A stretch of DNA of 64,000 nt from Prochlorococcus marinus str. MIT 0919. Its GTDB lineage: Bacteria; Cyanobacteriota; Cyanobacteriia; PCC-6307; Cyanobiaceae. Position 1 is the stretch's first letter. Every line of letters begins with the position of its first letter. Shown here piece after piece: positions 3,527 to 27,270 of the stretch. Location of the stretch: assembly GCF_027359375.1 (NCBI RefSeq), contig NZ_CP114779.1:62001-126000 (forward strand), written 5' to 3'. The position numbers were made by a program, and so were the translations under genes. The notes beneath the pieces were generated by a model that ran no database searches, was not told the DNA's origin, and saw nothing but the letters and a program-made list of their open reading frames with translations.

Positions 3527-3796
3527 TTAATAGATCAGCTTTAGTATGAGAATAGTCAGATTAAAGATTAAGGTGATAATGTTTGCTATTAAAACTGGTA
3601 TTGATTTGGTTTGAATTGCATAGATGATCCAGAATATAAGACCTGTTATAAACATTATTAACATGACTATGGAGAGCCCATCTGTCTTTCTACTTTTCCA
3701 TGTCTTCACGACCTGAGGGAAAAAAGCAAAAGTTGTCAACGCAGCCGCTACAAATCCAAAAAGGTCAGAACTGACTAGAAATCCGTTAGTGTCCAT
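3527..3796 (-). CDS. SemiSWEET-type sugar transporter (PQ-loop, MtN3 family)
   Basis: 89 aa with three predicted transmembrane helices (about 11-28, 43-62, 66-87). The signature FPQVVKTWKSRKTDGLS places the P-Q pair at residues 27-28, followed by the basic K-x-W-K-S-R-K-T-x-G-[LI]-S stretch typical of SemiSWEETs. Family members dimerise to form a sugar uniporter in the cytoplasmic membrane. The length equals the family norm (80-100 aa). The substrate is not readable from sequence. A 26-aa hydrophobic frame just upstream overlaps its start and is probably chance. Confidence 0.85.
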   Translation of the reverse strand: MDTNGFLVSSDLFGFVAAALTTFAFFPQVVKTWKSRKTDGLSIVMLIMFITGLIFWIIYAIQTKSIPVLIANIITLIFNLTILILKLIY

Positions 3797-4133
3797 GCTG
3801 CCATGAAATTAAACTTGTCTCCAAGATACATATAAATGAAATCATTAGTACTAGGGAATCTTGCATCAATCGGCAAAATCAAAAAGATTACTTCCATTGA
3901 TAGCACTTAAGTACCAAACTAGTTTCTATGAAAATAATATCGATCTTGGGGATACTTGAAATTTAATCTATCAAGTCAGGATGATCTATATCTAACAGAT
4001 ATAGATATTAAGCTTTAAATACATTTTCCTCAAATAAATAATGTGTTTATCCTTTGTCATGACTAAATTAATAAACTTCCTATGTAGTAGTGAATTCAGA
4101 CTCTATATGTTGAAAAACCATAATAAAACATAA
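3797..4133. other. Intergenic region without a convincing gene
   Basis: AT-rich spacer between the SemiSWEET gene and the terminator of the DUF4278 gene. It contains only short frames (a 30-aa frame on the plus strand at 4041-4133 and 22-26-aa frames on the minus strand), none with a clear ribosome-binding site or recognisable composition. Confidence 0.4.
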
Positions 4134-4134
4134 A

Positions 4135-4159
4135 AAAAGCTCTTCTAAGAAGAGCTTTT
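4135..4159 (-). terminator. Rho-independent terminator of the DUF4278 gene
   Basis: Perfect inverted repeat AAAAGCTCTT / AAGAGCTTTT (4135-4144 and 4150-4159) with a 5-nt loop. On the minus strand the stem is followed by a T run, 19 bases after the stop of the small gene at 4178-4279. The symmetric A/T flanks could also act on plus-strand transcripts. Confidence 0.8.
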
Positions 4160-4177
4160 AAAAAGATAGAGGATTAA

Positions 4178-4279
4178 TTAGCTTTGGTATTGCTTGCCAC
4201 GATAGGTGAGAGTTACATGCTCCTTTGATACCGCAGCTTTGTGCTGAATGTACTTTTGACCTCTATAAGTTAAAGACAT
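4178..4279 (-). CDS. DUF4278 small protein
   Basis: 33 aa with the family signature L-T-Y-R-G-x-x-Y repeated: SLTYRGQKYIQHKA and TLTYRGKQYQS. DUF4278 proteins are short, basic, cyanobacteria-specific and of unknown function, often seen among stress-responsive transcripts. The gene has its own terminator downstream and a structured 100-nt leader upstream, so it is an independently transcribed unit. Confidence 0.75.
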   Translation of the reverse strand: MSLTYRGQKYIQHKAAVSKEHVTLTYRGKQYQS

Positions 4280-4379
4280 AATGAGTCTCCGAAATAAGCT
4301 CAAGTCCCCGTTCCATGGCTTGAGTCGAACTGCGGCTCTCGTATGAGAGTTGAACGTTTTAGTAGCTTTTGCTACAAAA
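4280..4379 (-). promoter_or_regulatory. Structured 5' leader of the DUF4278 gene (three hairpins)
   Basis: Three consecutive perfect inverted repeats lie directly upstream of the start codon: GTAGC/GCTAC with a TTTT loop plus A/T extension (4357-4379), CTCTC/GAGAG with a 4-nt loop (4336-4349), and CTCAAG/CTTGAG with a 14-nt loop (4299-4324). On the transcript they occur in that order before the AUG. This is more structure than a normal spacer in this AT-rich genome. It could be a regulatory leader or a small RNA processed from it; no known riboswitch class is recognised. Confidence 0.4.
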
Positions 4380-16992: not shown

Positions 16993-17763
16993 CTAAATCG
17001 CCTTTAAAATAAGCGAAGTTCCAACAGCAAATGAAATAATTTCGAATGCTTTTTTTACCAGTTTTTCTCCTTTAGCAATTGCTATATGAGCTCCAATATA
17101 CCCACCTAAAAGGGCCCCTCCAATCAATGCTGGTAGCCATTCCCATCGGATTGCTGTATTCATGGCTAATGCAACAGCCCCGGTACCATTCCAGACAACC
17201 CCTACAAGAACAAGCGTGTAAGCAATCGCGCTTGTATAAGACAGACCAAACCACACAACCAGCCAAATTGTTACGAATAAACCTGTCCCTGAGGCTAGTG
17301 AACCATTTATTAAGCCAATAATGAATAGAACAAAACCACCACTTAGTTTCTTAGTTAACGAAATTTCTTGTTTATTAGATAAGTTATTTATATGAGGACA
17401 CTTTGCCGAAAATATTCCCAAGAAAAGAGTTAACGTCCCGAGGGACAAAGCACCTGCTCTTTCTGGTATCACAAGAGCCAATTGCGAACCAACTAAAACC
17501 CCAGGCAATCCACAAAAAAGAATAAAAGCCGAAAAGGATCTTTTCAAACTCCTTTTCTTAAAGTATTGCAAGCTTGCTCCAATACCAAGTGCAACGCTTG
17601 CCATTTTGTGAGTTGCTAAAGCAGTAGGGAATTGGAGTCCTAGCAATAACAAAACTGGTAATTGAATTAACCCAGCACCTCCTCCCGATAGCGCGGAAAG
17701 TAAATTTGCAAATATTGCAACAAGAAATAAGATTCCTTGAAACCCGTAAATATATATATTCAT
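16993..17763 (-). CDS. TauE/SafE family sulfite/anion permease
   Basis: 256 aa, very hydrophobic, with about eight transmembrane segments. N-terminal LLSALSGGGAGLIQLPVLLL and the second-half repeat FIIGLINGSLASGTGLFVTI carry the glycine-rich G-x-G-x-G motifs of the two TauE (DUF81) repeats. Members export or import small anions, such as sulfite, sulfoacetate and other organosulfur compounds. Substrate unknown here. Standalone gene with its own terminator; over 400 bp of non-coding sequence lies upstream. Confidence 0.85.
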   Translation of the reverse strand: MNIYIYGFQGILFLVAIFANLLSALSGGGAGLIQLPVLLLLGLQFPTALATHKMASVALGIGASLQYFKKRSLKRSFSAFILFCGLPGVLVGSQLALVIPERAGALSLGTLTLFLGIFSAKCPHINNLSNKQEISLTKKLSGGFVLFIIGLINGSLASGTGLFVTIWLVVWFGLSYTSAIAYTLVLVGVVWNGTGAVALAMNTAIRWEWLPALIGGALLGGYIGAHIAIAKGEKLVKKAFEIISFAVGTSLILKAI

Positions 17764-19917: not shown

Positions 19918-20238
19918 TCAAAAACCTTTTTCTTCTAGATCAGCATTGTGAAGCTTTTGCATCTCAACCATTTCCGCACATGTTAAAGCAGGCCTATAAA
20001 GGAATTCACAACCAAACGCGGATCTCCAAAACATAAAATGCTTAAAGAGCGCTTTTGAATCAGATGCTTTGCATATAATACAAAGTTCTCCTGATTCAGG
20101 CATATGCAATCTAGCTATTAATTCAAATCCCTCAAACTTATCCATCTTTGCACCATCTTCCATATACTTTATGAAAGCGGTGTAGCCTTCATCTTGAGTC
20201 TCAGAAGGAACTACACAAGTAACAACGTAAAATTGCAT
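19918..20238 (-). CDS. DUF3303-like small protein
   Basis: 106 aa. Ferredoxin-like alpha/beta pattern: MQFYVVTCVVP, a helix, then GFELIARLHMPESGELCIIC, ASDSKALFKHFMFWRSAFGC and a C-terminal EFLYRPALTCAEMV. The G-x-x-[LI]-x-x-R-x-H ... G-x-x-x-x-x-x-A-x-[DS] layout resembles DUF3303, a stand-alone dimeric alpha/beta barrel family. Function unknown. Confidence 0.65.
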   Translation of the reverse strand: MQFYVVTCVVPSETQDEGYTAFIKYMEDGAKMDKFEGFELIARLHMPESGELCIICKASDSKALFKHFMFWRSAFGCEFLYRPALTCAEMVEMQKLHNADLEEKGF

Positions 20239-20320
20239 TAGACTCTAGAAACTATCTATATTTTTACTAGCATAATGGAATTTTTCGGCAATTTGTTAGA
20301 AGAACAAAAAATTTATTAGC

Positions 20321-20506
20321 TTATGATAGCCAGGACCCACCTTTCGATAAGACTTTCAAATATGCATCAATTGCATCTCTGTTTGCTTTCTTGATATCGA
20401 GTACTTTATTAGGAGCTACTCTTTTTTGCTTGTATATAGGATTTAGAGGGCCATCAAACAATCTGTCTAAAATTGACTTCTTTCTTTTTAAATTAATAAC
20501 AGCCAT
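20321..20506 (-). CDS. Small basic hypothetical protein
   Basis: 61 aa from ATG 20506 (MAVINLKRKKSILDRLFDGP); an 18-residue upstream extension to 20560 is less likely. Basic and helical (VLDIKKANRDAIDAYLKVLS). No membrane segment or known family. Confidence 0.5.
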   Translation of the reverse strand: MAVINLKRKKSILDRLFDGPLNPIYKQKRVAPNKVLDIKKANRDAIDAYLKVLSKGGSWLS

Positions 20507-20724
20507 TAGAAATAAACTATGGTTAATTTCATAGATAGCTAATTTTTCTAATGAATGCAATGTTTAATCTTTAGGATACATTGATTCTACAAGCCTTTTT
20601 TCGAGAGTTTATGGTTTTAAGTTGCTTATATCTTCTTCTTTGCCTTTGCTAGATGCAAATGTTTCTTGATGCAGTCGCTTGGTATGTTAAATATTGGTCA
20701 TTATTTTAAACAACTTGGTTCCGT

Positions 20725-20922
20725 ATGAATATTAAGGAGATCATCCAGGCATATGCCTTTCCGAGCTTGGCCGTCTTAAGCACTGCAAGCTTAGTTTCAA
20801 TTGCAGCTTCTTTAATGCCACTTTCCGAATGGGCCAGAAATCAAAACGATTGTGTAGAGAGGACAGTCGCTTTCAAAGGACTTCCTGACAAAGTGTGGAG
20901 TTGTAATGGAGGAGGTGATTGA
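20725..20922 (+). CDS. Small exported/membrane-anchored protein with C-terminal cysteines
   Basis: 65 aa. N-terminal hydrophobic helix (FPSLAVLSTASLVSIAASLM), then a short domain with NDCVERTVAFKGLPDKVWSC. Two cysteines 21 residues apart suggest a disulfide outside the membrane, as in other small products here. Unknown function. Confidence 0.6.
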   Translation: MNIKEIIQAYAFPSLAVLSTASLVSIAASLMPLSEWARNQNDCVERTVAFKGLPDKVWSCNGGGD

Positions 20923-21113
20923 TGGTCATTCAGCCAACCTGTTTGGTTGAACTATCTCTTTTGGGTTGATTTGAAAAGTAAAACTAATAAAGACGTTTTG
21001 GAGAGAAAATTTTCTATATCCAAACTGGTTAGGGGAACCGAACTTGAAAAGAGTCTTTTTTGTACTTATACCTTCGTTTGTCATCGAAAATCCAATCACA
21101 AGGCCCCCATTCC

Positions 21114-21251
21114 ATGGAAAAGGACGCTCGTTCTTCTCTCGAAAGCGCATTAGATGAATCAAAGTCCAAAGGCAAGGAGCGCTTAACTCAGGCTCTCCTG
21201 CAAGCATTAGAGGACCATCATAGAGAGCTTAAAAAATCCAAAGCTGCCTAA
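21114..21251 (+). CDS. Small helical protein
   Basis: 45 aa from ATG 21114 (MEKDARSSLESALDESKSKG). Entirely charged and helical (RLTQALLQALEDHHRELKKS). Upstream codons in frame back to 21060 belong to an unrelated composition. Function unknown. Confidence 0.5.
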   Translation: MEKDARSSLESALDESKSKGKERLTQALLQALEDHHRELKKSKAA

Positions 21252-21442
21252 AACTTGCACTTATGAGGTGGCTCCTAACAAAAAAATATATATTTATCTA
21301 AGTTTACTGCTTAATTTTAATAAGCCAAGAAAGGTCTGCTGACATTAGCTATTGGGTTTATTAACTTTAAAACTTGTATGAATATTCGTTAGAAATCAGC
21401 TGACTAGCAGCTCCTCCTCCTTGCCTTAAATCTACATATATT

Positions 21443-21475
21443 AAAAGGGGCTTCCTTGCGTGAGAAGCCCCTTTT
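21443..21475 (-). terminator. Strong bidirectional terminator
   Basis: 12-bp perfect stem AAAAGGGGCTTC / GAAGCCCCTTTT with a 9-nt loop. It lies 28 bases after the minus-strand gene at 21503-21652 and also follows the plus-strand gene ending at 21251, so it can serve both. Confidence 0.85.
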
Positions 21476-21502
21476 GGGTTTTTAAATAATCTCTATTGGT
21501 CT

Positions 21503-21652
21503 TTAATCTTTTTTGGAAGGATAATTCATTTGGTCATAGTCAGGACCAACTAATACTGCCATTACTGCGAAGAGAGCTATAAAAGCTATACCAATGTAAG
21601 CAGCCGAAGGAGCTGGTGTACCAAGAAGAGATGCGAAGTTAAGAGGAATCAT
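21503..21652 (-). CDS. Small single-pass membrane protein, paralogue of 8518-8658
   Basis: 49 aa (MIPLNFASLLGTPAPSAAYI; helix about 18-36; tail GPDYDQMNYPSKKD). It shares the P-x-A-A-x-[VI]-G-[VI]-A ... LFA-[IV] ... [IV]-x-G-P-[ND] pattern with the product at 8518-8658. It has its own terminator. Resembles the size and layout of low-molecular-weight photosystem subunits, but I cannot match a named one. Confidence 0.6.
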   Translation of the reverse strand: MIPLNFASLLGTPAPSAAYIGIAFIALFAVMAVLVGPDYDQMNYPSKKD

Positions 21653-22040
21653 GACTGATAGTAAACAGTGCTATTAATACATCAAAAACTTCTTTTGTAG
21701 TGTCCTTTTATTTACAATTGGTTAGACACTCAATTTCCAAAGGGGGCAATAAAAGCCGGTATTAATTTGGTTCTGGGCGTTTTTATTGGAATTTGGGCTA
21801 GTAGCAATGCGTAATAACTCCTAACCAAATCAAGATATTTAGTTTGCATCACCCAACAAAATTCTTTATTTTCAAAAGTCAAAGACTTAGCACTTCTCTA
21901 AGGTTGATTAAGATATATATCCCCTCAAAATGAATATTTTGTTGCCTTAAGTGAATTTTCCTAGCCTAGTATTATTAAGTTTAACTTTCTTCTTAGATTG
22001 CGTTTGCAACTCTAATAAATAAATATACCTATTATTTGGA
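21653..22040. other. Intergenic region containing a start-less small frame
   Basis: 388 bp. The plus-strand frame 21710-21814 reads YNWLDTQFPKGAIKAGINLV and then a hydrophobic helix to TAA. It looks protein-like (amphipathic start, one membrane helix), but the only possible start codon downstream of the preceding stop is ATT. Either it is a gene with a rare start, or it is a decayed remnant. Nothing else seen. Confidence 0.35.
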
Positions 22041-22244
22041 TTACCTTCTACCTGCTTGAGACCAAGTTATAAACCAATCAGATTTTGTTTTCAATAAATT
22101 TTCTGGCATAGAATCCTGCAGTTCTGAGATAGCAGCTCTCATGTATGGATTGCCAGCATCAAACTTTTCAAAGAAATCAATTAGATTAAGAACATAATTA
22201 TCATTTATATCTTTATGCTTGATTGATTTGAAATCATTAATCAT
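22041..22244 (-). CDS. Small soluble hypothetical protein
   Basis: 67 aa (MINDFKSIKHKDINDNYVLN). Mixed charged/aromatic composition with LIDFFEKFDAGNPYMRAAIS and a terminal WFITWSQAGRR. It looks folded; no membrane segment. No family recognised. Confidence 0.55.
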   Translation of the reverse strand: MINDFKSIKHKDINDNYVLNLIDFFEKFDAGNPYMRAAISELQDSMPENLLKTKSDWFITWSQAGRR

Positions 22245-22462
22245 TGTTTTTGTGCAGAAAAATTAGTCTGTAAATTAATTAAAAATGCCTGCCTATGTAG
22301 CTCCCCCTTTGTTAAGAAACAAGGAATCATTAGAGCTAGTATTGGCTCAAACTTAAGATAACTTCTTTGGAATATTTAGCTATGGTTTTTTACAAAGATC
22401 TTTTTATCAAAATATTTAATTTATGATTTTCAGACGATTTTAATTTGTTCTTAAGTGGTTCT

Positions 22463-23650
22463 TTAGCCTTTACCAGCTTCTGCTAAGTCTTCCTGGAGTC
22501 TGTTCTCACAAGCTAAAACTCTTGCCCAGCAAGGTAATTGTTGCGTTACGGGTGATTCCAGGAATTTTAGTATTGCTGGCCTAATGATTTTAGAAAATTT
22601 CTGTATAGCCAGCTCTTCTTCATGCCTGTTATAAGGAAGTTGATTAACGGCCGAATCCAACCCGAATTGTTTAACTCGATCTTGCCCAACGCGCCTAAAA
22701 AGGACTTCTAAGTTTGAAAGTTGTGAATCTGATAATGATTCAGCTTGATGTTCCATTAATCCTCTTAAAACACTAGAGAGGATCTCTGTACACATTTTTT
22801 GAAGACCTTCTTTTGGGTTCTGTCCAATACCTTTATGCTTGTGATCAAATATCCCTAGATCCACTTGTGCAATCCTTGAAATCCTTACATTCTTATAAAC
22901 CTCTGATAAAAGTCCAATTTCCAATCCCCAATCGCAAGGGATTCTTAGATTCATTCCAAGATCTTTTGTAAAAGCAAATTCTCCAGCAAGCGGATATCTA
23001 AATTCTTTTAGGTATTCAAGGAAAGAACCATGGCCAACTAATTGTTCCAATGAAGTTAATAGAGGGCCAACAAAAAGCCTTGTTGCTCTTCCTTGAAGAG
23101 CATTTGTTTCTAAAGACAATCGACTATAGAAAGCTTTTACGTATGAGATGCCATGAGATGGCTCAAGCAAGGGCTGAAGCATTCTGATCGGATATGCAGA
23201 ACTAAAAGTTCTTATATCTGCATCAAATAGAGCTACGACTTCTGAACTTCGAGTGGCTATACCAATGCCTTGCCAAACGGCCCAGCCTTTGCCTGGTGTT
23301 CCAATTAAATCCAAGCCGTTATTTGCTTGAGTTTGGAGTAGTTCAATTACAGAAGGACTATTTGTCCATTGAACATGCACTGGGTAAGGCATTGTTTCGA
23401 AGAATGCCTTGGCTTCTAAGACTTCTTCTCTTGAGTTGGCTGATAAAGCAATTACAAGTTCATTTAATCCATCTAAATTTTTCAGAACATCTCTGATGAG
23501 CTTCAAAGCAGGCCTTCTGAATTCTTCGAACAAGCAAGGTATCAAGATGGAGGTGGGTCTTTTTGATAGCCCTTGCCTTAAGTTGTCTAGAGAATCTCCA
23601 GCAACCCCATACTCATGAATTGTTGTTATCAAACCCTGTTGAAAGTCCAT
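22463..23650 (-). CDS. gpgS: Glucosyl-3-phosphoglycerate synthase (GT81 family)
   Basis: 395 aa from ATG 23650 (MDFQQGLITTIHEYGVAGDS); a 17-residue extension to 23701 would overlap the divergent gene and is rejected. GT-A fold: SILIPCLFEEF first strand, GKGWAVWQGIGIATRSSEVV, the metal-binding DxD as FDADIRTF (D143-D145) and FDHKHKG. These are hallmarks of GpgS, which joins NDP-glucose and 3-phosphoglycerate to glucosyl-3-phosphoglycerate. The divergent phosphorylase, phosphatase and glycerate kinase genes confirm the pathway. The product, after dephosphorylation, is the compatible solute glucosylglycerate, known from marine picocyanobacteria under salt stress or nitrogen limitation. Confidence 0.88.
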   Translation of the reverse strand: MDFQQGLITTIHEYGVAGDSLDNLRQGLSKRPTSILIPCLFEEFRRPALKLIRDVLKNLDGLNELVIALSANSREEVLEAKAFFETMPYPVHVQWTNSPSVIELLQTQANNGLDLIGTPGKGWAVWQGIGIATRSSEVVALFDADIRTFSSAYPIRMLQPLLEPSHGISYVKAFYSRLSLETNALQGRATRLFVGPLLTSLEQLVGHGSFLEYLKEFRYPLAGEFAFTKDLGMNLRIPCDWGLEIGLLSEVYKNVRISRIAQVDLGIFDHKHKGIGQNPKEGLQKMCTEILSSVLRGLMEHQAESLSDSQLSNLEVLFRRVGQDRVKQFGLDSAVNQLPYNRHEEELAIQKFSKIIRPAILKFLESPVTQQLPCWARVLACENRLQEDLAEAGKG

Positions 23651-23695
23651 TCGGTATTTAGTGCAACAGAATGTAAGTAGTGTTCTAATGATCCT

Positions 23696-25465
23696 GTGCA
23701 AAGTATTGGTAAATACTCAGTGACAGGATCGCAACAGCCACTAAAGAAGTTGAGTGGATTACTCAAAGAAGTTTACAGCGACCACTCTGCAGAAGAATTC
23801 AATTATATGTGGTCGCAATTGCTGCAGATTTTGAATGAGGATGGTTGTCGAGACATTGCCTCTGAAAAAAAAGCTGAGCTATGGGATTCTTCTACTGCCG
23901 TTTTGATCACATATGCGGATGGTATATATCAACAAGGAGAACCTAGCTTAAAGACACTTAAAAAACTCATTGATAATTACTTAACTGATCTTTCTTCTGT
24001 AATACATATCCTACCTTTCCTATGCTCTACAAGTGATGGAGGCTTTGCTGTCTCTGATTATGAGAAGTTGGAACCTCGCTTTGGAGGTTGGGAAGATTTA
24101 AATGATCTTTCTAAAGAACATATATTGATGGCAGATTTGGTTTTAAACCATGTTTCATCTTCACATCCATGGGTTCAGCAATTTATAAAGTCAAAAGAAC
24201 CTGGAAGTAAGTATATATTTTCACCACAACATTCTGATGATTGGAGTAATGTTATAAGACCTAGAAGTAGCTCTCTTTTTACAAGCTTAGCAACTATAAA
24301 TGGGACTAAAGAGGTTTGGACAACTTTTGGACCTGACCAAATTGATGTTAATTGGAAAGAACCATATATAGTTATTGAGTTTTTAAAATTAATTATAAGG
24401 TATATAAAATCTGGAATAAAATGGATAAGGCTTGATGCTGTTGGATATATATGGAAAGAATCAGGAACTACTTGTCTTCATAGGACTCAAGTTCATCAGT
24501 TAGTTAGGTCATTAAGAATAGAAATGGAACAAATTTTTTCGGAAGGTGTTTTAATTACTGAAACCAATGTTCCTGAGAAGGAAAATATATCTTATCTCCA
24601 ATCTGGTGATGAGGCTCACCTTGCATATAATTTTCCATTGCCACCATTATTACTTGAAGCTTTAATATCTAATAAATGTGATCTCTTAAATAATTGGCTC
24701 TGTTCTTGGCCTGAATTGCCGAAAAATACTGGCTTTCTTAACTTTACTTCTTCACATGATGGTATAGGTTTACGACCTTTAGAAGGGTTAATGGATAAAA
24801 ATAGAATGCGAAATTTATTAATAGCCTGTGAAAATAGAGGCGGTTTGATTAGCCATAGAAGATTATCTAACGGTGAAGATAAACCGTACGAATTAAATAT
24901 AAGTTGGTGGAGTGCAATGAAAAATGATGGAAGAGATTCTTCATTATTTCAATTTGAGAGATTTATTTTAAGTCAGTTATTTGTAATGTCATTAAAAGGT
25001 GTACCTGCTTTTTACTTGCAAGCATTAATGGCATCTGAAAATGACTTGAAAACTTTTACTAAATCTGGTGAGAGGAGAGACTTAAATAGAGAGAGATTTG
25101 AAGCATCTACGTTATTTAACAAATTAGAAGACGAACAATCTTTGCCAAGCAGAAATTTGAAATTACTAAAAAAAGCTATGAATCTTAGAAGAGAGCTAAG
25201 ATCTTTTCACCCAGATCAACCAATGAAATGTGTTACTAAGAATCGTAGTGATCTTGTAATACTATTTCGAGGAGAAGGCCGTGATACTTTGATGGCGATT
25301 TATAATATGACAAATGCAAAGTTATGCTATTCCCTTTCTAATATTTTAAGAGTCGAAGGCAAATTTATTTCTTCTTGGAAAGATTGCTTGAATAACTTTA
25401 AATCTCATCAAAACCGCATCGAGTTGAGTCCTTATTCTGCTCATTGGCTGATTCCATTATTTTAA
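23696..25465 (+). CDS. GH13 sucrose/glucosylglycerate phosphorylase-like enzyme
   Basis: 589 aa from GTG. Alpha-amylase fold of the sucrose-phosphorylase subfamily (GH13_18): VIHILPFLCSTSDGGFAVSD, ADLVLNHVS, nucleophile D247 in IRLDAVGYIW, acid/base E289 in LITETNVPEKENISY, stabiliser D355 in TSSHDGIG. Family members phosphorolyse sucrose, sucrose-6-phosphate or glucosylglycerate. Next to gpgS, gpgP and a glycerate kinase, glucosylglycerate phosphorolysis to glucose-1-phosphate and glycerate is the best fit, but sucrose is not excluded. Its stop is 4 bases before the next ATG, so the three plus-strand genes form an operon. Divergent from gpgS by 45 bp. Confidence 0.85.
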   Translation: MQSIGKYSVTGSQQPLKKLSGLLKEVYSDHSAEEFNYMWSQLLQILNEDGCRDIASEKKAELWDSSTAVLITYADGIYQQGEPSLKTLKKLIDNYLTDLSSVIHILPFLCSTSDGGFAVSDYEKLEPRFGGWEDLNDLSKEHILMADLVLNHVSSSHPWVQQFIKSKEPGSKYIFSPQHSDDWSNVIRPRSSSLFTSLATINGTKEVWTTFGPDQIDVNWKEPYIVIEFLKLIIRYIKSGIKWIRLDAVGYIWKESGTTCLHRTQVHQLVRSLRIEMEQIFSEGVLITETNVPEKENISYLQSGDEAHLAYNFPLPPLLLEALISNKCDLLNNWLCSWPELPKNTGFLNFTSSHDGIGLRPLEGLMDKNRMRNLLIACENRGGLISHRRLSNGEDKPYELNISWWSAMKNDGRDSSLFQFERFILSQLFVMSLKGVPAFYLQALMASENDLKTFTKSGERRDLNRERFEASTLFNKLEDEQSLPSRNLKLLKKAMNLRRELRSFHPDQPMKCVTKNRSDLVILFRGEGRDTLMAIYNMTNAKLCYSLSNILRVEGKFISSWKDCLNNFKSHQNRIELSPYSAHWLIPLF

Positions 25466-25469
25466 ACTC

Positions 25470-26261
25470 ATGATTATTTCAAAAGACTGGTGGATAGTAA
25501 CAGATATTGACGGAACTTTAATGGATCATGACTATAATTATGATCCTGCACTGCCAACAATTAGCTGGCTCAAAGATATTGGTATACCAATTATTCCTTG
25601 TACTAGTAAAACAGCTACAGAGGTTAGAAGTCTTAGGGAAGAACTAGGATTGAATGATCCCTATATCGTTGAAAATGGAGGTGCAATATATGGATTTGAA
25701 GCATCAAAAAGAAAAGAATGGGAATTAATATTGGGTAAAAGTTTTAAGGAATTGAGGCTCATATTAGATTCAATTTCTCAAGAAATAGGTTATTCACTAA
25801 AACCTCTTAACGACTTGTCTCATGCAGAAATAAAATCCCTTACAGGACTAAAGGGTGATGCGATATTGAAAGCTCTTGATAGAAAATGGAGTGTTCCTTT
25901 CTTAAATCCACCATCTTCTGATAGAGACAAATTAATTGAAATCGCAAAGAAATTTGATGCTAATATATATAAAGGTAATAGGATGAGTCATTTACTTTCG
26001 CAAGCGAGTCATAAAGGCTTAGCAGTTCTTAAATTAAAGCAATATTTAAATAAACCAGATGTCAAAATAATAGGGCTAGGAGATTCTCATAATGATATCC
26101 CTTTATTAGAAGCTGCCGATTATTCAATTGTTGTTCCCGGAAATAAAGGTCCTAATGAATTCTTATTAGAAGGGATAGAAAAAGGTGAATATATTCTAGC
26201 TCCAAAACCTCATGCAGAGGGATGGGCTATATCGATTAGAAATTTATTAAATTCTGTCTAG
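25470..26261 (+). CDS. gpgP: Glucosyl/mannosyl-3-phosphoglycerate phosphatase (HAD-IIB)
   Basis: 263 aa. HAD motif I at the N-terminus: VTDIDGTLM with nucleophile D12 and D14. PCTSKTATEVRSLREELGL and YIVENGGAIYGF belong to the cap-linked MpgP family, and motif IV is LGDSHNDIPLLEAAD (about 203-217). The enzyme removes phosphate from glucosyl-3-phosphoglycerate (or the mannosyl analogue) to yield the free osmolyte. Four bases after the phosphorylase and 7 before the kinase: one operon. With GpgS it completes synthesis. Confidence 0.88.
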   Translation: MIISKDWWIVTDIDGTLMDHDYNYDPALPTISWLKDIGIPIIPCTSKTATEVRSLREELGLNDPYIVENGGAIYGFEASKRKEWELILGKSFKELRLILDSISQEIGYSLKPLNDLSHAEIKSLTGLKGDAILKALDRKWSVPFLNPPSSDRDKLIEIAKKFDANIYKGNRMSHLLSQASHKGLAVLKLKQYLNKPDVKIIGLGDSHNDIPLLEAADYSIVVPGNKGPNEFLLEGIEKGEYILAPKPHAEGWAISIRNLLNSV

Positions 26262-26268
26262 ATTTTAT

Positions 26269-27270
26269 ATGGATTTAAATAAAGAAAAATCAGAAGAAAT
26301 ATTAACTTCATCTAGTCTTTGGCCAGAGAGTATAAATTCAAGTATTAAATTTCCTAAAAAAGGGTTTCATGAATTGTTAGCTGATATGGGTTGGAAATTT
26401 TCAGATTGGATATCTTTTTGGATGTCATTAGATGCAGAGAACCTAGCCTCTAATTATTGGTCGAAAGGGACAAGAAAAGATTGGGTTTGGGGGTTAGGAA
26501 TACCTTTACTTACTCAAATTAAAAATTCTTGCAACCTCGAAAATTCCAAGAGAATCATTGGTATATCAGCTTTACCTGGCTGTGGTAAATCTAGTTTAGG
26601 AAGGTGGTTGGAAGAATCTTCAAACCAAATTGGTATAGATATTAATGTTATTTCATTAGATGATTTTTATTTTACTGGTGAAGAACTCGATAAAGTTATG
26701 AAGGACAATCCTTGGAATGTGCCTAGAGGAATCCCTGGAAGTCATGATATACAACTTCTGGAAGACACTATTCTGCAATGGATAGACTCTGGCAAATTAC
26801 TTGCTCCAAAGTTTGATAAATCTTTAAGAAATGGAATGGGAGACAGATCGACTTGGATCAATACCCAACCTAAAATATTGATTATCGAAGGTTGGTTCCT
26901 GGGTTGTAAACCATTAAAAGTAAAAGGAAACAAAACAGATTTATTTACACCAAAATTAACAGATTTAGAAATTAAATATAGAGAAAAAATCCAGCACTCT
27001 CTTAAGCAATACCTTCCTATTTGGGAACTAATTCATAGAATTTGGCATATTAGAGCAACTGATTTCTCTTCTACATTTAAATGGAAAGTAGATCAAGAGA
27101 ATGAAATGTTTCATCAAAGGGGAAGCGCATTGCAAGGAAAATCTTTAAAAACTTTTGTTAGGATGATAGAAACTGCTATTCCTCAGGAAAGTCTAAATAC
27201 TATTGACAGTAGTGTATTGATTGATATTAATCAATTACGTGAGATTTTATATGTAGGTAGACCCTTCTGA
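26269..27270 (+). CDS. D-glycerate 3-kinase-like P-loop kinase
   Basis: 333 aa. An N-terminal 90 residues precede the kinase fold. P-loop GISALPGCGKSSL (about 98-110), then VISLDDFYFTGEEL and LIIEGWFLGCKPL, the pattern of plant/cyanobacterial GLYK and YgaC/YfhN-type kinases. Phosphorylates glycerate, normally in photorespiration. Here, last in the glucosylglycerate operon, it can return glycerate released by phosphorolysis to phosphoglycerate. It may serve both pathways if it is the only copy in the genome. Confidence 0.82.
   Translation: MDLNKEKSEEILTSSSLWPESINSSIKFPKKGFHELLADMGWKFSDWISFWMSLDAENLASNYWSKGTRKDWVWGLGIPLLTQIKNSCNLENSKRIIGISALPGCGKSSLGRWLEESSNQIGIDINVISLDDFYFTGEELDKVMKDNPWNVPRGIPGSHDIQLLEDTILQWIDSGKLLAPKFDKSLRNGMGDRSTWINTQPKILIIEGWFLGCKPLKVKGNKTDLFTPKLTDLEIKYREKIQHSLKQYLPIWELIHRIWHIRATDFSSTFKWKVDQENEMFHQRGSALQGKSLKTFVRMIETAIPQESLNTIDSSVLIDINQLREILYVGRPF

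Follow-up and report, generated by a model that had tools for sequence, protein, structure and literature searches.

The four genes at 22463-27270 of the window, by which we mean the whole 64,000-nucleotide stretch analysed here, probably constitute a picocyanobacterial glucosylglycerate module that joins synthesis to phosphorolytic recycling, a reading to which we give a probability of roughly 0.88. All four ORFs are intact: gpgS, for glucosyl-3-phosphoglycerate synthase (22463..23650, minus strand, ATG at 23650, 395 aa), is transcribed away from the genes for a putative GH13_18 glucosylglycerate phosphorylase or GGaP (23720..25465, plus strand, 581 aa), a gpgP-type HAD phosphatase (25470..26261, plus strand, 263 aa) and a GLYK-type D-glycerate 3-kinase (26269..27270, plus strand, 333 aa), which is the gene set and orientation described in the first-pass annotation. 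Gene identities and arrangement come from the sequence, while characterised relatives and the transcripts published for strain NATL2A are the basis for inferring the reactions, the flux direction and the control. On this basis GpgS would join NDP-glucose and 3-phosphoglycerate, GpgP would dephosphorylate the product to glucosylglycerate, a compatible solute, the GH13_18 enzyme would use phosphate to split this solute into glucose-1-phosphate and D-glycerate, and GLYK would turn glycerate into 3-phosphoglycerate. The cluster and the cycle are already known, having been described in 2024 in the related strain NATL2A, where a glucosylglycerate operon with recycling to glucose-1-phosphate and 3-phosphoglycerate was presented (Coe et al. 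2024, PMC11631117); this window contributes another member, a corrected phosphorylase start, and comparative points on linkage and decay.

By published sequence criteria, taken from a 2020 review, the GH13 protein reads as a strict glucosylglycerate phosphorylase of the YcjM type. These criteria are a (T/S)ETN motif and a Glu in loop A (Franceus and Desmet, PMC7178133); the protein has ITETN at strand 5 (residues 279-283, including N283) and KPYELN in loop A (E391), both invariant with YcjM, together with the GH13 catalytic residues D239, E281 and D347. The activity of the Meiothermus GGaP is severely impaired when either Asn275 or Glu383 is exchanged (PMC7178133), and N283 and E391 were equated with these two residues by motif, the Meiothermus sequence itself being unaligned. 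Similarity to E. coli YcjM extends over the full length (32% identity, 327 bits), and fingerprints, catalytic residues and full-length similarity all match the GH13_18 GGaPs (EC 2.4.1.352) of Meiothermus silvanus, Spirochaeta thermophila and E. coli (YcjM), so that comparison with the YcjM subgroup points to the activity that had been proposed. It is very unlikely that the protein is instead a glucosidase or a sucrose phosphorylase and that glucosylglycerate undergoes no phosphorolytic recycling. Earlier picocyanobacterial surveys do name the gene gmgG, for glucosyl(mannosyl)glycerate-glucosidase (PMC9361551, PMC7522525), and a sucrose-phosphate synthase is encoded in the same genome, so sucrose is made there. 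Moreover, besides a Pfam alpha-amylase match, the best curated model for the protein is that of sucrose phosphorylase (NCBIfam sucrose_gtfA), yet its score of 170 bits falls far below the 334-bit cut-off. Where sucrose phosphorylases carry the loop-A motif N(L/V)D(I/L/V)YQ the protein reads NGEDKPYE, the solved sucrose and glucosylglycerol phosphorylases have Gln rather than Glu in loop A and other residues in place of TETN, and YcjM is the closest characterised relative found here. A search for viral copies of the phosphorylase found none.

The synthesis arm is assigned on several grounds. The gpgS product is identified as GpgS by its best NCBIfam model, GpgS_Meth (E 1.8e-116, full-length alignment), by a weaker match to solved GpgS structures (E about 1e-14), by the co-occurrence of its gene with the phosphorylase in 48/48 genomes and by the literature, the GpgS_Meth score (389 bits) lying below the curated 700-bit cut-off. 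The phosphatase is classed as gpgP-type, although the model that it matches above cut-off, NF001217 (404 bits against 373), is named for mannosyl-3-phosphoglycerate phosphatase; it also matches solved MpgP relatives. Its substrate is read as the glucosyl form because gpgS is a neighbour and because Prochlorococcus is reported to have glucosylglycerate among its major solutes (PMC11631117).

The arrangement of these genes is widely conserved. Among 121 genomes of one family, by content Cyanobiaceae, the phosphorylase (counted at >500 bits) is present in 48, and gpgP accompanies it in all but one, in which the gene is cut by a contig end. When the family genomes were pooled with 80 named Prochlorococcus contigs and duplicates removed, gpgS proved divergent from the phosphorylase in each of the 119 distinct loci, and gpgP came next after the phosphorylase in 116 of them (the exceptions being L106 and, at a contig edge, L065 and L120); the arrangement is therefore not due to chance. 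Placing the phosphatase with the phosphorylase had struck the first-pass annotation as odd, but it is a fixed arrangement across the family rather than an oddity of this genome. The kinase gene follows gpgP in 96/119 loci, all of them Prochlorococcus-type, five further loci ending too early to tell. It is next to gpgP in 0/18 Synechococcus-type loci (a label given from sequence distance and genome size, not a taxonomic test), in which at least 700 bp of sequence past gpgP is available in ten and 81 to 672 bp in eight, and in genomes of the Synechococcus type the best match to the kinase is at another place in the genome. The gpgS-gmgG-gpgP cluster of marine Synechococcus (PMC7522525, PMC9361551) similarly has a divergent gpgS, then the GH13 gene, then the phosphatase, but its kinase gene is unlinked and its GH13 protein is annotated as a glucosidase. 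A published table (Table 4 in PMC9606707) lists NATL1A gpgP and gpgS under well-separated tags, NATL1_05721 and NATL1_09131, one of which may be a different gene; here, in contrast, gpgP and gpgS are neighbours except in a few loci at contig ends.

The kinase resembles solved D-glycerate 3-kinases (PDB 7xpc, E 1.5e-18; 6ckg, E 8.4e-15) and has the P-loop PGCGKS, homology and P-loop together defining the plant-type GLYK; being of this 3-kinase type, it should phosphorylate glycerate to the GpgS substrate 3-phosphoglycerate, in keeping with the earlier proposal that it returns glycerate to phosphoglycerate. No other glycerate kinase was recognised in this genome, from which GarK/GlxK and MOFRL glycerate kinases are absent by searches that were both positive in control genomes. 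However, the kinase is found in 109/121 Cyanobiaceae genomes, many without gpg genes, and in four loci its frame is open beside decayed cycle genes: L053 (G085:C8:38500-45000) has intact gpgS and gpgP and only a degenerate fragment of the phosphorylase, L054 a truncated gpgS, L055 a gpgP fragment, and L056 fragments of both gpgS and gpgP. G085 is thus apparently a natural case of glucosylglycerate synthesis kept without phosphorolysis. In L057, which has gpgS fragments, the kinase frame holds a stop. The kinase tree (11/35 inner branches starred) had too little support to show how often the cycle was lost independently, and such a count was dropped.

Since it is the sole recognised glycerate kinase and persists where the other genes are missing or decayed, the kinase is probably shared and not dedicated to the cycle, and it probably also handles photorespiratory glycerate, which would bring two glycerate sources to one enzyme. 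A stronger version, in which it is a general photorespiratory enzyme that owes its place in the operon to genome compaction and plays only a small role in glucosylglycerate recycling, would account for its wide occurrence, its open frame in the four decayed loci and its lack of linkage in Synechococcus-type loci. We nonetheless consider this rather unlikely: the kinase gene is adjacent in every Prochlorococcus-type locus whose contig is long enough, which upholds its link to the locus in relatives, and this genome has no other recognised enzyme for the glycerate. In addition, GGaP genes elsewhere in bacteria lie near genes for glycerate kinase, GpgS or GpgP (PMC7178133), although E. coli ycjM differs in having ABC transporter and kojibiose phosphorylase genes, and not gpgS, as neighbours. 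A shared kinase that also serves the cycle thus remains the preferred reading.

The start of the phosphorylase gene, and with it the size of the divergent region, had to be revised. A region of 45 bp had been described, which rested on a GTG start at 23696. When the window was aligned with nine close relatives (ten loci in all), L012 had GTA and L007 had GCG in place of this GTG, and in L013 the codon stands before an in-frame TAA. At the place of window position 23720, by contrast, 10/10 loci have a GTG or TTG and then ACAGG. As the 23696 codon is unusable in three loci and the 23720 start is common to all ten, the gene most likely begins at 23720, so that 69 bp (23651-23719), not 45, separate the divergent genes. 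The genome that holds the window measures 1,716,770 bp, against 1,688,963 and 1,751,080 bp for those of its nearest relatives, which we take to be Prochlorococcus MIT9211 and SS120; every named locus of a close relative that the genome collection contains is from Prochlorococcus.

Over the corrected start codon lies a 41-bp palindrome (23690..23730), of which no earlier report was found in the literature; it may act as an operator of the NtcA type or as a hairpin in the mRNA. It contains GTA-N8-TAC at 23703-23716, a form shared by a site in the MIT9313 glnA promoter used for NtcA binding (PMC5767323), and this element is exact and at the same place in 8/10 close loci, its N8 varying. An NtcA operator was nevertheless rejected as the settled reading: the element occurs in 1/109 of the other loci, at a different place, and is thus a feature of one clade only, the six-base GTA/TAC pattern is at chance frequency within the window, and a hairpin fits the outer arms equally well. 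The RNA hairpin fold has a z of -5.3 in the window and of -1.3 to -3.2 in five relatives; pair counting across the close loci gave 0 compensatory changes and pairing not above shuffles, and the hairpin was likewise rejected as the settled reading. The main text of a proteomic study of nitrogen limitation in SS120 (PMC5451487) contains nothing on glucosyl compounds, sucrose phosphorylase or compatible solutes. That in this low-light Prochlorococcus clade the palindrome, as operator or as hairpin, determines by nitrogen status which way glucosylglycerate flux runs is an idea that we regard as unlikely.

By textbook stoichiometry, one turn of the proposed cycle uses up one NTP, converted to NDP with release of pyrophosphate, and one ATP, amounting to about three phosphoanhydride bonds, and phosphorolysis of glucosylglycerate instead of its hydrolysis saves one ATP. 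The statement that the cycle closes with little energy loss was therefore too strong. As gpgS and the other three genes are transcribed in opposite directions, synthesis can fall while recycling rises, and in dark-tolerant NATL2A the synthesis and recycling transcripts do change in opposite directions (PMC11631117). In sum, what the first-pass annotation observed is confirmed and its interpretation is supported in part.

Closest to hand for comparison is locus L070, whose genome we take to be that of NATL2A. Its operon resembles that of the window in its four genes, their order and the divergent gpgS, but lacks the palindrome at the phosphorylase start, and a TauE/SafE-family gene (3557-4330, plus strand, in L070) adjoins gpgS in convergent orientation there, whereas its counterpart in the window (16993-17763, minus strand) is 4.7 kb from gpgS. 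This gene is probably the putative transporter mentioned beside the operon by Coe et al. (2024), who found it upregulated together with recycling, with synthesis down, in dark-tolerant NATL2A, and uptake was proposed (PMC11631117). The recycling arm could accordingly use mainly glucosylglycerate taken up from heterotrophs and not the cell's own pool, but the distance between the TauE/SafE-type gene and gpgS in the window, and the fact that synthesis and phosphorolysis genes nearly always occur together, make this improbable, and recycling of the cell's own glucosylglycerate is preferred. Beside gpgS, the 2.2 kb at 20238-22463 are without ORFs of at least 100 aa and have small ones only. Known RNA families were not found at the locus; elsewhere in the window a glutamine-II riboswitch is present at 4299-4359 (minus strand, 72.7 bits).

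Very abundant phototrophs of the ocean have glucosylglycerate among their main nitrogen-free solutes, and a cycle able to make and reuse it would link salt balance with the storage of carbon and with survival in the dark. To this picture the comparison adds testable detail, namely that the kinase is linked to the other genes only in Prochlorococcus and that it outlasts the other genes of the cycle.
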